Of a stretch of DNA of 40,414 nucleotides, positions 19,573 through 24,634 are shown piece by piece. The position numbers and the translations under genes were made by a program. The stretch lies in assembly GCA_947446975.1 (NCBI GenBank), contig CANFHM010000018.1, forward strand, positions 1 to 40,414, written 5' to 3'. The number at the start of each line of letters is the position of its first letter. The first letter of the stretch is position 1. This DNA is from Microthrixaceae bacterium (GTDB taxonomy: Bacteria; Actinomycetota; Acidimicrobiia; Acidimicrobiales; Acidimicrobilacustridaceae). The notes below the pieces were generated by a model, which worked only from the letters and a program-made list of their open reading frames with translations, did not search any database and was not told the DNA's origin.

Positions 19573-20808
19573 TCAGCTGGCGGGGGCGATGCTGTCCCAG
19601 CTGATCGGGAGCTCGGCGAATCCATCGATCAGGTTCGAGTGCACCCTCGGGAAGTCGGCGGGGTCGCCGTCGACCCGCAGCCCCACGAACCTCGACAGGA
19701 TCTGCTCGAACATGATCCGACCCTCGAGTCGGGCGAGATTCGCACCGAGACAGAAATGCGGACCACCCGCACCGAACGCCACATGGTCGTTCGGTGTGCG
19801 CAGCACGTCGAGGGAGTCCGGGTCGACGAACGCCCGCTCGTCGCGGTTGGCCGAGGCGTAGACCATCAGCACGCGCTCCCCCGCCGAGATCCGCCGGCCG
19901 CCGAGCTCGGTGTCGACATTGGCCGTCCGCGTGAAATGGATGACCGGCGTGGAGAAGCGCAGCAGCTCCTCGATCGCCCCCGGGAGCGTGTCGAAATCAT
20001 TCCGCACGATCTCCATCTGGGCCGGGTCCTGCAGCAGGGCCAGCGTGCCGGTGGTGATCAGGTTCCGGGTGGTCTCGCTGCCGGCGTTCTGCAGCAGCAT
20101 GAAGAACACCTCGATCTGGAACCTCGTGAGCTGCTCCCCATCGACCTCGGCGTGCAGCAGCACACTCATGAGATCGTCGCTCGGGTTCGTCTCACGCTCG
20201 GCGCACATGGCGTCGGCGTACATGAACATGTCCATGGTGGCCTGACCGCGTTCCTCGGGCGTGACGGACGGATCGAATCCGAAGGTCTTCTCCGTCCAGT
20301 CGAACACCTGGGCGCGATCCTCCTCCGGCACGCCGACCATGTCGGCGATGACGTGGAGCGGCAGCCACAGGGCGAGATCGTGGACGAGATCGCAGCCATC
20401 GCGATCGGAGAGTCCATCGATGATGGCGTCAGTACGGGCCCGGAGACGGTCGCTCAGTTCGGCGACCCGACGCGGCGTGAAGCCCTTGTTGATGATCTTG
20501 CGCAGCTTGATGTGCTCCGGTGCGTCCTTGCTGATCAGCAGTTCCGATGTGCCGGCACCCTCCCCGCTGCCCATCGTGCCGTCCTCGAGGAAGGGATCCG
20601 GCGCATTGCGGAAGGTGACGGCGTCACGGGACACCCGCTGGACGTCCTCATGCCGGGTGATGACCCAGTAGCCGTTCTCGTAGGTCGGGTGGTCGAGATG
20701 CGCCACCGGGTCGTTGTCGCGCAACCACCGGTAGTAGTCGTACGGGACCCCGTTCGCATAGGTGGTGGGGTCATGGAGGGCGGGGGCATCGATGGGTGCG
20801 GTGGACAT
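19573..20808 (-). CDS. cytochrome P450
   Basis: A complete 411-residue soluble bacterial P450. The I-helix oxygen-binding motif is AGSETT (residues 242-247) and the K-helix ExxR is E281-L-L-R284. The heme loop [11 protein letters not shown] has the ligand Cys353. The heme loop and I-helix resemble the actinobacterial sterol/lipid P450s (CYP125, CYP142, CYP124 group) by eye, but the substrate cannot be assigned. It lies 19 bases after the nitronate monooxygenase gene, with AAGGAGA before its ATG, so they form an operon. No ferredoxin or ferredoxin reductase adjoins it. The Rieske-type gene at 25832 is distant and not an obvious partner. Confidence 0.95.
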
Positions 20809-20827: not shown

Positions 20828-21952
20828 TCAGTCGTCGCCGAGCAACGACTGCAGACGCTGTGTGGTCTCGATCCATTCCTCGACCATCTCGAGGACGAGG
20901 TCCCGACTGGGACGCACCTTGTTCATGCGGCCCACGATCTGCCCGACCGGGAATCCGATGAGCTCGCGGGTGCCGACACGCTGGGTGCGACGACCGGCCT
21001 CCTGGTGCAGGATCCCCTGGAGCGGCATCGGGAGCGTTCCGGGTGAATCGGGGCCCTCCCATGCATCGGTCCAGGCGGTGCGCAGCTGACGGGCGGGCTT
21101 GCCGGTCATCGCCTTGGAACGCACCGTGTCGGCCGAGGTGGCGGCGAGCATGTTCTCGAGCGCTGCCGGACTGGTGTCGGCCTCGGAGACGGTGAGCCAC
21201 ATCGATCCGGTCCAGACCCCCTGGGCGCCGAGAGCCAGCGCTGCGGCCATCTGCCTGCCGGTGGCGATCCCGCCGGCGGCGAGCACGGGCACATCGGGGC
21301 CCACAGCGTCGACGACCTCGGGCACGAGCACCATCGTGGAGATCTCGCCGCAATGACCCCCCGCCTCGGTGCCCTGGGCGACGATGACATCGACACCGAT
21401 GGCGACCTGACGTTCGGCATGCACCTTCGAACCGGCGAGACCACCGACCAGCACACCCTCGGCGTGGGCCCGCTCGATCACGTAGAGCGGGGGCGGGCCG
21501 AGGGCGTTGACGATCATCTTCACGTTGGGATGTGCCAGGCACACCTCGACCTGGCTGGGTCCCATGGCATCGACCCCGAGTCCTGCGGCGGCCACCTCGC
21601 CCCCTTCGAGCTCGGGGGGCAGCTCGGGCACGTCGTAGCGCTCGAGGAGTTCATCGACGAACTGACGATGCTGCTGCGGGATCATCGCATCGAGCGCCTC
21701 GAACGTGGCCTCCTCGCCACCACCCTTGCCGATGTAGTTCACCGGCATGGCGAAGTCGACGCCGTACGGACGGCCGTTGACATGGGCGTCGATCCAGTCG
21801 AGTTCGATCTCCAGCTGCTCGGGGCCGAACGCGAGGGCCCCGAGGACGCCGAACCCGCCGGCGTTCGTCACCGCAGCGACGACGTCGCGGCAGTGGGAGA
21901 AGGCGAAGATCGGGAACTCGATCCCGAGACGCTGGGTGATCGGTGTGCTCAT
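20828..21952 (-). CDS. nitronate monooxygenase family flavoprotein
   Basis: A 374-residue TIM-barrel FMN protein of the 2-nitropropane dioxygenase/nitronate monooxygenase family. The N-terminal [11 protein letters not shown] and [10 protein letters not shown] segments, [15 protein letters not shown] (about residues 174-188) with the conserved AGGH, and [24 protein letters not shown] with the phosphate-binding glycines are all present. Many annotated members are really NADH:quinone or enoyl reductases of lipid pathways, so the nitronate activity is only the family name. It is the first gene of an operon with the P450 and is divergent from the alcohol dehydrogenase. A GGAGGA ribosome binding site precedes the ATG. 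Confidence 0.87.
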
Positions 21953-21975
21953 CGAGGATCCTCCACTGCGACGGA

Positions 21976-21996
21976 GCAGGGGTCGAGCGCCCCTGC
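21976..21996. repeat. hairpin in the leader of the nitronate monooxygenase gene
   Basis: GCAGGGG at 21976-21982 and CCCCTGC at 21990-21996 are perfect inverted copies around a 7-base loop, 24-44 bases before the ATG. It could be an operator or a leader hairpin. Confidence 0.4.
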
Positions 21997-22006
21997 GGCT
22001 GGCGAG

Positions 22007-22012
22007 ATCGTA
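22007..22012 (-). promoter_or_regulatory. -10 candidate for the nitronate monooxygenase-P450 operon
   Basis: On the minus strand TACGAT, next to an unusually A+T-rich stretch (about 22010-22050) in this G+C-rich sequence. Confidence 0.4.
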
Positions 22013-22088
22013 CTACACAAAACTGAAGAGCCGCAGAATAATGTCACATGATCGCGAACAGGCGCACGCCGCCCCCGCTCGCCCGGCC

Positions 22089-22094
22089 TAGATT
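22089..22094 (+). promoter_or_regulatory. -10 candidate for the alcohol dehydrogenase operon
   Basis: TAGATT, with a leader of about 40 bases to the ATG at 22140 that includes the GGGAAG ribosome binding site. Confidence 0.4.
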
Positions 22095-22139
22095 GAGGCG
22101 ACCACGCGCCTCCGGCGACGAACCGTTGAAGGGAAGACC

Positions 22140-23288
22140 ATGAGAACTCGGGCCGCAGTGCTGTACGCCCCCCACACCCCCTACGTCATCGAGGAGATCG
22201 AACTCGATCCGCCGAAGGCCAACGAGGTGCTGGTGAAATTCACCGCGAGCGGCATGTGCCATTCCGATGAGCACATGGTCACCGGCGACATGGCCATGGA
22301 TCAGGGCATCCTCGACATGCTCGGCTGGCAGCAGTACCCGATCATCATGGGCCACGAGGGCGCCGGCGTCGTCGTCGAGGTGGGCCCCGGAGTCACCGAG
22401 CTCGTCGTCGGCGACCATGTCGTGACCTCCTTCGTCCCCTCCTGCGGGCGCTGCCCGTCCTGCGCCAGCGGCCACCAGAACCTGTGTGACAACGGCGCGT
22501 ACCTGCTCTCCGGTCGTCAGGCCGACGGCACCGCTCGTCATCACAGCCTCGACGGTCAGCCCATCGCCACGATGTGCTGTCTCGGCACGTTCGCCGAGCA
22601 CTCGGTCATGAACATCAACTCGCTGGTCAAGATCGAACCTGACCTCCCGCTCGACAAGGCCTGCCTCGTGGCGTGTGGCGTCACCACCGGTTGGGGCTCC
22701 GCCGCGTATGCCGCCGATGTCGCTCCCGGCGAGACCGTCGTGGTCATCGGCACCGGTGGCGTCGGCATGAACGCCGTCCAGGGTGCGCACCACGCCGGCG
22801 CCAAATTCGTCATCGCACTCGACCCGGTCGAGTTCAAGCGTGAGCAGGCCCAGAAGTTCGGCGCCACCCACGGTGCCGCCAGCGTCGAGGAGGCACAGGC
22901 CCTGCTCGGTGAACTCACCTGGGGCCGCAACGCCGACAAGGTGATCGTCACGGTGGGCGAGGGCAAGGGCGCCGACCTCGGCACCTACATGGGCATGGTC
23001 GCCAAGGGCGGCAAGCTCGTGTTCACCTCGGTCGCCAACATGAACGACAACGAGGTCACCCTCAACCTCTTCGATCTCTCGATGCAGCAGAAGTCGATCG
23101 TGGGAACGCTGTTCGGCAGTGCGAACCCTCGCCACGACATCCCGAAGCTGCTGAGCATGTACCGGGCCGGTCAGCTCAAGCTCGATGAGCTCGTCACCCG
23201 CACCTACACCCTCGACGACATCAATCAGGGTTACCAGGACATGCGCGACGGCATCAACATCCGCGGCGTCATCATCTACGGGGACTGA
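22140..23288 (+). CDS. NDMA-dependent-type zinc alcohol dehydrogenase (mycofactocin-associated family)
   Basis: A 382-residue medium-chain dehydrogenase matching the NDMA-dependent alcohol dehydrogenase family (TIGR03989, Rxyl_3153 type). Cys40, His72 and Glu73 (GHEGAG) are catalytic zinc ligands, and Cys102, Cys105, Cys108 and Cys116 are the structural zinc site. GTGGVG near residue 204 is the Rossmann motif. CGVTTGWGSA and SANPRHDIPKL are family hallmarks. Enzymes of this group hold NAD tightly and pass electrons to an external carrier, believed to be mycofactocin. The mycofactocin genes are not in the window. Its stop is 1 base from the start of a ketosteroid isomerase-like gene, which suggests one pathway. 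Confidence 0.92.
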   Translation: MRTRAAVLYAPHTPYVIEEIELDPPKANEVLVKFTASGMCHSDEHMVTGDMAMDQGILDMLGWQQYPIIMGHEGAGVVVEVGPGVTELVVGDHVVTSFVPSCGRCPSCASGHQNLCDNGAYLLSGRQADGTARHHSLDGQPIATMCCLGTFAEHSVMNINSLVKIEPDLPLDKACLVACGVTTGWGSAAYAADVAPGETVVVIGTGGVGMNAVQGAHHAGAKFVIALDPVEFKREQAQKFGATHGAASVEEAQALLGELTWGRNADKVIVTVGEGKGADLGTYMGMVAKGGKLVFTSVANMNDNEVTLNLFDLSMQQKSIVGTLFGSANPRHDIPKLLSMYRAGQLKLDELVTRTYTLDDINQGYQDMRDGINIRGVIIYGD

Positions 23289-23289
23289 C

Positions 23290-23673
23290 ATGGCCACCCG
23301 CGAGGAGATCATCGCCATCCCCGATCGCTACATCGCCGCCGTCGCGGCCGGCGATGTCGACACGATCATGTCGCTCTACAACGACAACCCGTTCGTCGAG
23401 GACCCCATCGGCGAACCTGCCCATGAGGGCGTCGACGCCGTCAGGGCCTTCTACTCGCAACTGCGCGATTCGGGCTTCAAGATCGATCTCACCCGCATCA
23501 CGCCGGTGTGTGTGGCCGGCGGCAATGAAGCAGCCTTCGCCTTCCGCGTGGATGTCGACCTCGGCGAGATGACCATGTCGATGGTCACCCACGACACCAT
23601 GGTCTTCGACGACGACGGCCGCATCGCCCGGATGCGCGCCTATGCCGACAGCCAGGCGACGCCGGAGTCCTGA
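23290..23673 (+). CDS. ketosteroid isomerase-like protein (SnoaL/NTF2 fold)
   Basis: A 127-residue NTF2-like protein close in length to true delta5-3-ketosteroid isomerases (about 125-131). The catalytic trio appears intact: Tyr14 and Asp38 fall at the classical positions, and Asp102 in THDTMVF aligns with Asp99 of the Comamonas enzyme (both followed by an aromatic/hydrophobic strand and then x-G-[KR]-[VI]-x-x-[MR]-R-A). Many family members lack this trio, so its presence is informative. The expected reaction moves a C5-C6 double bond into conjugation with a C3 ketone. The start lies 1 base after the alcohol dehydrogenase stop, so the two proteins are made together. Substrate identity is inference. 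Confidence 0.82.
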   Translation: MATREEIIAIPDRYIAAVAAGDVDTIMSLYNDNPFVEDPIGEPAHEGVDAVRAFYSQLRDSGFKIDLTRITPVCVAGGNEAAFAFRVDVDLGEMTMSMVTHDTMVFDDDGRIARMRAYADSQATPES

Positions 23674-23713: not shown

Positions 23714-23745
23714 GATGTGCGCTGACCCTCGGGTCAGCGCACATC
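23714..23745. terminator. perfect 32-base palindrome, bidirectional terminator
   Basis: Two perfect 15-base arms (left 23714-23728, beginning GATGTGCGCTG; right 23731-23745) flank a TC centre. It lies between the isomerase-like gene and the convergent zinc-tail gene, whose stop codon and last codons fall inside the right arm. A preceding C/G-rich run (about 23678-23693) may add a second short stem. Confidence 0.65.
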
Positions 23746-24543
23746 TCGTTGGATGGGGGCGAGGTGGCACTCGCAGGAACTGGTGCTGTCGCATGGGCCG
23801 CCGCGACCCACGGGAGCGAATCGGTCCGGATAGGCCACGCCTCCCTCGACCTTTCCGGCGAACACGCATCCGCAGGCGTCGCAGGCCCATCCTGTGCGCA
23901 CGACCTCGACGAGTTCGACCCCGGGGATGCCGAATGCTGCGGCGGTGGCCGCTGGATCACGGGTCCATCGACCGGAGGTACGTCTCGTCGGCGTGTCCTC
24001 GGTCGCGACATCCGGAACGCCACCCGTAGCCGAGGGTGACTCCCCTGCGATGGTGGCCCCGACAGCCGCGAGGGCGATCAGTTCGACGAGCGCGGCGGCA
24101 TCGGCTGGCCCGGCGAACGCCCCTCGAGCGGCGGTCCCGTCGAGCTGGAGCAGCGCCCGATGCACCCCGAGCACCAGGGCACCGTGACCCGGAGGTCGGC
24201 GGGTGTGCCACAGGGTGCCCTCCCGGAGCGCGACGGCGCGCTCGCTGGCCGCCAGCATCAGCTCCTCGGGCATGACGAACACCCCGCCGAGGACGAACGT
24301 GTTGGTGACCGCCGCCGTGACCATGCGTCGCCATTGGGTGCCGATGTCGGTCCGACGGTCCGCCCGATCCCGAAGGAGTTCCTCGTCAGGTGCGAGATGA
24401 TCGATCATGAGCGCCTCGAGGATGATCCAGAGGGTCTCGACGGCGGTCTCCATGTCCTCCGAGGGCATGCCGATCTGCGCCGAGATGAACGCCTGACGCA
24501 GCACCGTCCCGCACCGCTCGAGTTCCGCCTCATCGAATCCCAT
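23734..24543 (-). CDS. uncharacterised helical protein with C-terminal cysteine cluster
   Basis: The ATG at 24543 is chosen because AGGAG lies about 6 bases upstream; an in-frame ATG at 24600 would add 19 residues. The 269-residue product has a largely helical N-terminal part (about residues 1-160), a Thr/Pro-rich linker and a cysteine-rich tail. The tail holds WACDACGC, then about 30 residues on GPC and CECH, giving six cysteines and a final His. It looks like a small zinc-ribbon or Fe-S motif of an unrecognised type. Function unknown. Its stop lies in the perfect palindrome at 23714-23745. It is divergent from the single-span membrane protein at 24647. Confidence 0.6.
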   Translation of the reverse strand: MGFDEAELERCGTVLRQAFISAQIGMPSEDMETAVETLWIILEALMIDHLAPDEELLRDRADRRTDIGTQWRRMVTAAVTNTFVLGGVFVMPEELMLAASERAVALREGTLWHTRRPPGHGALVLGVHRALLQLDGTAARGAFAGPADAAALVELIALAAVGATIAGESPSATGGVPDVATEDTPTRRTSGRWTRDPAATAAAFGIPGVELVEVVRTGWACDACGCVFAGKVEGGVAYPDRFAPVGRGGPCDSTSSCECHLAPIQRDVR

Positions 24544-24634
24544 GGTCGTCTCCTGCACCCCTGGATTCTCGCCGATCCCATCGCTCGCATGTCGGGTCAT
24601 GTCGCCCGCTGGTTCGGACCGAGGGGCGCACCGC

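Follow-up and report, generated by a model that had tools for sequence, protein, structure and literature searches.

To our knowledge, natural mycofactocin substrates past simple alcohols have been little explored. The closest described counterpart of the gene pair considered here is that of mycobacteria; in H37Rv, Rv0760c and Rv0761c are presumably neighbours and lie near cyp51. Rv0761c has been named as a member of the TIGR03989 family, which according to Haft is exclusive to species with the mycofactocin system (both statements from the accessible part of PMC3023750), and under the name adhB it is listed as a predicted requirement for growth on cholesterol in the available text of PMC6429209. 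As far as the accessible sections of PMC6529628 go, the mycobacterial physiology of mycofactocin is that of growth on ethanol and other primary alcohols, and the cholesterol phenotype of mft mutants was later attributed to the ethanol used as solvent.

We looked for pairs of this mycobacterial type in 40 stretches of DNA bearing an alcohol dehydrogenase (ADH) of this type, 22 of them from a single family (f56), which we infer to be Mycobacteriaceae from its Rv0760c-like genes. A frame resembling ketosteroid isomerase (KSI; E<=1e-3) was detected in five of the 40, all from this family; the KSI-fold protein lies directly behind a TIGR03989-like ADH in three (L095, L103, L113) and about 2 kb away in the remaining two (L100, L112). 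In L103 there is a P450 gene upstream, and P450 and SDR genes flank the pair, the P450s being, as we take them, CYP51 and CYP123. The KSI-fold protein of L112 matches Rv0760c (PDB 2a15, 'putative steroid isomerase') at 3.1e-80.

Organization of the locus and affinities of its products

The window analysed here is a stretch of 40,414 nucleotides from a Microthrixaceae bacterium that is known from assembled environmental DNA alone (assembly of 2.35 Mb in 96 contigs, 88.63% complete); isolate names allow the guess that its lineage lives in freshwater. The relevant features are as follows:

19573..20808, minus strand: CYP125-kind cytochrome P450 of 411 aa, whose gene follows that of the flavoprotein at a distance of 19 bases; best solved relative CYP125MRCA
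20828..21952, minus strand: 374-aa FMN oxidoreductase from the nitronate monooxygenase/FabK superfamily, PF03060; divergent from the ADH gene
21953..22139, no strand: divergent promoter region, 187 bases between the flavoprotein and ADH start codons
22010..22051, no strand: two facing short motifs GTACTACACAA ... AATGTCACATGA, a possible operator, from an alignment of 15 intergenic regions
22089..22094, plus strand: TAGATT, which may serve the ADH-KSI operon as its -10 element; shared by 13 of the 15 intergenic regions aligned
22140..23288, plus strand: NDMA/mycofactocin-type zinc ADH, 382 aa, TIGR03989
23290..23673, plus strand: KSI homologue, 127 aa, with Tyr14, Asp38, Tyr55 and Asp102

The ADH stop codon TGA occupies 23286-23288 and the KSI gene runs from its ATG at 23290 to a stop ending at 23673, leaving 23289 as the sole base between them, precisely the 1-base gap reported in the initial annotation. 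With 567.8 bits against a cut-off of 440, the ADH belongs to TIGR03989 (NDMA-dependent alcohol dehydrogenase), as had been proposed. Its Cys40, His72 and Cys179, along with Cys102/105/108/116, are invariant in a set of 13 sequences and in a further set of five; with horse liver ADH as the model, we take the former to belong to the catalytic zinc and the latter to the structural zinc. The genome encodes a second TIGR03989 enzyme (C55, 523.9 bits). About 10 residues around positions 53-67 (22296-22340) are found in the ADHs of the window's clade, and both this second copy and the mycobacterial homologue lack them; a role in forming the substrate pocket is possible. In loci from other genera and families (L056-L060) a MoxR-like AAA ATPase with weak matches to MadB_ATPase comes next after the ADH orthologue, joined in L057 and L060 by a VWA/CoxE-like protein; in the loci examined from the window's clade, this arrangement was seen nowhere up to 3.5 kb from the ADH.

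The predicted model of the isomerase has the fold and length of a KSI (best Foldseek TM 0.87). All 50 Foldseek matches listed are KSIs, with 29-35% identity, and among the matches listed the solved structures nearest to it in sequence and in fold alike are steroid isomerases. SnoaL_2 (PF12680) is the sole Pfam family above cut-off. Positions 14, 38 and 102 are Tyr, Asp and Asp, and Asp102 aligns with what we number as Asp99 of the Comamonas testosteroni KSI, the roles of Tyr14, Asp38 and Asp99 being those that we assume for that enzyme. The residue check and the alignment to the Comamonas KSI therefore uphold the catalytic trio and matching length first noted for this protein, and the model agrees in fold with the KSI structures against which it was to be compared. 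Elsewhere, a KSI from this subfamily that retains all four of the residues lies directly behind an FAD enzyme (L094:1-1860, family f56) that scores 920.7 bits with NF009474, the next best being a 3-ketosteroid-delta1-dehydrogenase model at 403.9 bits, under its cut-off; this context of the subfamily appears steroid-like.

The initial annotation had called the divergent genes simply a P450 and a flavoprotein; both are present, and the former can be named more exactly. Its best solved relative is CYP125MRCA, a reconstructed CYP125 ancestor (388.8 bits), and natural families score lower, with 278.6 bits and less for CYP125, 274.6 for CYP124 and 246 for CYP142. By convention, identity above about 40% to its members places a P450 in the same family; the value here, 188 of 396 aligned residues (47.5%), is to an ancestor reconstruction, and we speak of a P450 of the CYP125 (steroid C26-monooxygenase) kind. 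Its nearness to CYP125 fits an order of oxidation, isomerization and hydroxylation on a sterol. The flavoprotein matches PF03060 with 146.8 bits and the FabK model TIGR03151 with 154 bits, under the cut-off of 453.1. In the promoter region the facing motifs at 22010-22051, possibly an operator, are conserved in the 15 aligned loci, KSI carriers and non-carriers alike, and the candidate -10 element TAGATT is missing from L047 and L055. No operator resembling those of KstR or KstR2 was seen in the 15 intergenic regions, and control of the locus by either regulator is thus unsupported.

Near the P450 gene the window also encodes a sulfatase (771 aa, PF00884, 15958-18273), which could release sterols from their sulfates; by eye, sulfatase-like frames adjoin the P450 in two relatives devoid of the KSI (L051, L053). 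Downstream of the pair, a frame at 23734-24600 (288 aa) has no Pfam or NCBIfam match at E<=1e-5, and a similar frame behind the ADH in L055 is likewise without a Pfam match.

Conservation of the pair

A KSI of the window's kind (E<=1e-40) is present in 10 of 37 genomes of the family, six from the window's genus and two each from two other genera, and in every one of them it lies directly behind the ADH. The P450 and flavoprotein genes stand in the same divergent order beside the pair in all ten carriers, and the ADH-KSI spacing is 1 base in seven and -4, 5 and 12 bases in the others. Order and spacing so widely kept are more than chance. The pairing thus recurs in relatives, the test named for it at the outset, and an accident of a single genome is ruled out by the conserved order in ten carriers from three genera. 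Tyr14, Asp38, Tyr55 and Asp102 are invariant in all ten. Tyr14 and Asp38 are retained also in the aligned unpaired KSI relatives, the Rv0760c-like ones excepted, so the catalytic trio is a trait of a wider subfamily and not of the pair alone. Comparison of G000 with four further genomes of the genus gives a KSI dN/dS of 0.05-0.17, which climbs to 0.60 and 0.50 in the two more distant pairs; between genera, the KSI is 48-59% identical to the window's and the ADH of the same four genomes 84-88%.

The ADH is found at >=83% identity (that is, at least 83%) in 23 genomes of the family, 13 of which have no such KSI at E<=1e-40, implying that the KSI is dispensable to the rest of the cluster. Five of these KSI-less loci were taken for comparison: four have the P450, flavoprotein and ADH, and the contig of the fifth ends behind the flavoprotein. 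Where the paired KSI is missing from a genome of the window's genus (15 cases), a KSI-like gene with 28-34% identity lies on a different contig in nine, and the other six give no KSI match at E<=0.001; the paired KSI is the sole KSI in each of the six same-genus carriers. In trees of 15 loci, comprising the KSI carriers and the five KSI-less ones, the latter cluster by their flavoproteins (91/89), the four that have a P450 adjoin G003/G004 in the P450 tree, and the ADHs of G011 and G012 fall among the KSI-less loci. A single loss of the KSI within the genus would be compatible with these trees. For G012 (L045) and G011 (L046), comparison with the window gives 86% identity for the ADH, 90-94% for the flavoprotein and KSI, and 87 and 90% for the P450, which suggests that the ADH allele alone was replaced.

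A contig scan recovered KSIs of the window's kind in nine loci, all from MAGs, with the four-gene unit in seven; these are contigs of seven of the ten carriers and therefore add no new cases. In L067 and L070 the KSIs are 54 and 48% identical to the window's and have no ADH, P450 or flavoprotein neighbours in the DNA covered. One record (L066) is labelled Bifidobacterium breve yet bears the four-gene unit of the window's family, and its label is probably wrong. The phylum-wide KSI search, over 396 genomes, extended to matches at E<=1e-15, and the corresponding ADH search scored at most four candidates per genome; the search for pairs of the mycobacterial kind was accordingly confined to the 40 stretches described above.

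Mycofactocin and steroid pathway genes

The window's genome has an mftD scoring 651 bits, above cut-off, on a 3.6-kb contig; it is 94% identical to the mftD of G012, which lies 0.8 kb from mftC. In the window's own assembly (88.6% complete) mftC was not found, and it is above cut-off in all nine other carriers of the pair. Together, mftD in the genome itself and mftC in the other carriers indicate that the mycofactocin pathway is present, in keeping with the early expectation that the genome should have such genes; the same findings rule out a genome without mycofactocin, the idea to which the failed mftC search had given rise. When co-occurrence was tallied by hand, mftC was above cut-off in 28 of 61 related genomes, each of which matches the window's ADH at E<=1e-90, as do five of the 33 other genomes, the window's included.

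The HsaC extradiol dioxygenase model (NF045631) finds no member above cut-off in any of 37 genomes, a survey that left out the carriers from other genera (G023, G027, G033, G034); the window's genome, at 88.6% completeness, gives a partial match of only 31.6 bits. For the 3-ketosteroid delta1-dehydrogenase KstD (NF009478), all six same-genus carriers, the window's genome included, are without a match at E<=1e-60. A KstD-like gene under the cut-off occurs in 12 of the 15 genomes of the genus that lack the pair and, among the other-genus carriers, in G023, G027 and G033, the fourth being without one; the model is above cut-off in just one of 61 genomes. Judged by HsaC and KstD, the window's genome gives no indication of 9,10-seco steroid degradation. 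As a result, the 3-hydroxy-delta5 sterol substrate initially suggested draws on the KSI residues and the CYP125-kind P450, but finds no backing in these degradation genes. If sterols are the substrate, the known ring-degradation path is probably not used in the window's genus.

Proposed reactions and relation to known systems

We regard redox-isomerization as the best reading: the ADH and KSI would be co-translated partners in a mycofactocin-coupled oxidation followed by an isomerization, with a 3-hydroxy-delta5 sterol as the likeliest substrate class, a proposal from sequence in which our confidence falls a little short of even. Going by its family, the zinc ADH with tightly bound NAD would turn a secondary (or homoallylic) alcohol into a beta,gamma-unsaturated ketone, with the hydride going to mycofactocin and no NADH being released. 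The intact active site of the KSI, with Asp38 as the base and Tyr14/Asp102 as the oxyanion hole, would then shift the double bond into conjugation, rendering the oxidation effectively irreversible. A 3-hydroxy-delta5 sterol would thus yield a 3-keto-delta4 sterol, whose side chain the CYP125-kind P450 would hydroxylate, and reduction of an enone or enoyl product may fall to the flavoprotein. The pair may in this manner carry out the opening step of sterol breakdown along an unusual path. More specifically, and here we are decidedly tentative, the locus could be a mycofactocin-dependent sterol entry in which a zinc nicotinoprotein ADH and a KSI, as distinct proteins, make up a two-protein 3beta-hydroxysteroid dehydrogenase/delta5-delta4 isomerase, their genes diverging from those of a CYP125-kind side-chain hydroxylase and a flavin reductase, such that the HsaC-less genus trims or modifies the sterol and keeps its rings. 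Against redox-isomerization stand the HsaC and KstD results, the 13 KSI-less genomes with a close ADH, the higher KSI dN/dS in the more distant pairs, the lack of a KstR-like operator, the mftC missing from the window's own assembly and the record of mycofactocin in growth on primary alcohols.

The main rival has the ADH serving the P450: the latter, by CYP125/CYP124 chemistry, would hydroxylate a sterol or branched isoprenoid at a terminal methyl, the ADH would oxidize the resulting primary alcohol to the aldehyde with mycofactocin, and the KSI would be an accessory for a double bond in some substrates. The KSI-less loci that retain the other three genes (four of the five taken from 13, the fifth contig ending), the P450's nearness to CYP124 as well (274.6 bits) and the documented mycofactocin substrates, which are primary alcohols in the available text of PMC6529628, all speak for it; L067 and L070, outside the family, moreover qualify the rule that the KSI always follows the ADH. 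Against this, the KSI is behind the ADH in all ten family carriers, its gene belongs to the ADH operon rather than to that of the P450, and none of its catalytic residues is lost; we consider this alternative rather unlikely. We also find it unlikely, somewhat more so, that the same two-step chemistry acts with a changed KSI pocket on a non-steroid, such as a terpenoid or some other homoallylic alcohol, whether cyclic or acyclic. Such a substrate would suit the six same-genus carriers without HsaC above cut-off or a KstD-like match, the fast drift of the KSI between genera (48-59% versus 84-88% for the ADH) with constant catalytic residues, and SnoaL_2 as the sole Pfam family; however, the nearest solved structures by sequence and fold are steroid isomerases, the neighbouring P450 is of the steroid-hydroxylase kind, and three of four other-genus carriers have a KstD-like gene, under cut-off.

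NTF2-like proteins adjoin many enzymes, and the two genes might simply share an operon, encoding a general alcohol dehydrogenase and an NTF2-like protein that have no common substrate. The mycobacterial order, in which the KSI-fold protein behind the ADH has an incomplete active site, is in line with that view, but an order kept in three genera with reading frames that overlap or nearly touch, an invariant residue quartet and a dN/dS of 0.05-0.17 within the genus make it improbable. Under redox-isomerization, a partner with a readable active site narrows the ADH substrate to one that becomes a beta,gamma-enone, making the question directly testable with commercial steroids.

With the KSI (EC 5.3.3.1) of Comamonas testosteroni and Pseudomonas putida, the window's KSI shares length, fold, Tyr14, Asp38, Tyr55 and Asp99; it differs in its 29-35% identity to the Foldseek matches listed and in being a predicted protein encoded behind a medium-chain ADH. 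The proposed product, a 3-keto-delta4 sterol, is that of cholesterol oxidase and of the 3beta-hydroxysteroid dehydrogenase/isomerase Rv1106c, but the latter uses NAD and itself forms the 3-keto-4-ene (available text of PMC6429209), whereas two proteins and mycofactocin would be involved here. MSMEG_6242 and other NDMA-dependent alcohol dehydrogenases likewise tie alcohol oxidation to mycofactocin, but MSMEG_6242 is required for growth on ethanol, and the accessible part of PMC6529628 mentions no isomerase.

A literature search, conducted mostly without subscription papers and in parts of the texts, found no paper on mycofactocin together with a ketosteroid isomerase, nor such a pair described. 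The initial view that no pair of this kind is known holds, within this search, for one with the full active site, but needs limiting, as a mycobacterial TIGR03989 ADH with an Rv0760c-type protein precedes it. The Rv0761c (adhB)-Rv0760c pair shares the order of a TIGR03989 ADH followed by a KSI-fold protein. The Rv0760c-like mycobacterial proteins, however, have Phe in all five cases at position 102 of the profile alignment, where the window's KSI has Asp, and Ser in place of Tyr14 in the one of five aligned there, the column being unaligned in four. The L112 protein is 33% identical to the window's KSI over just 46 residues, and we reject a close relationship with Rv0760c on this count and on that of Phe102. 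The window's pair is set apart from the mycobacterial one by its complete active site and its CYP125-kind neighbour; if the redox-isomerization reading is true, sterol metabolism would gain a new point of entry, and adjacent ADH and KSI-fold genes in mycobacteria would merit a second look.
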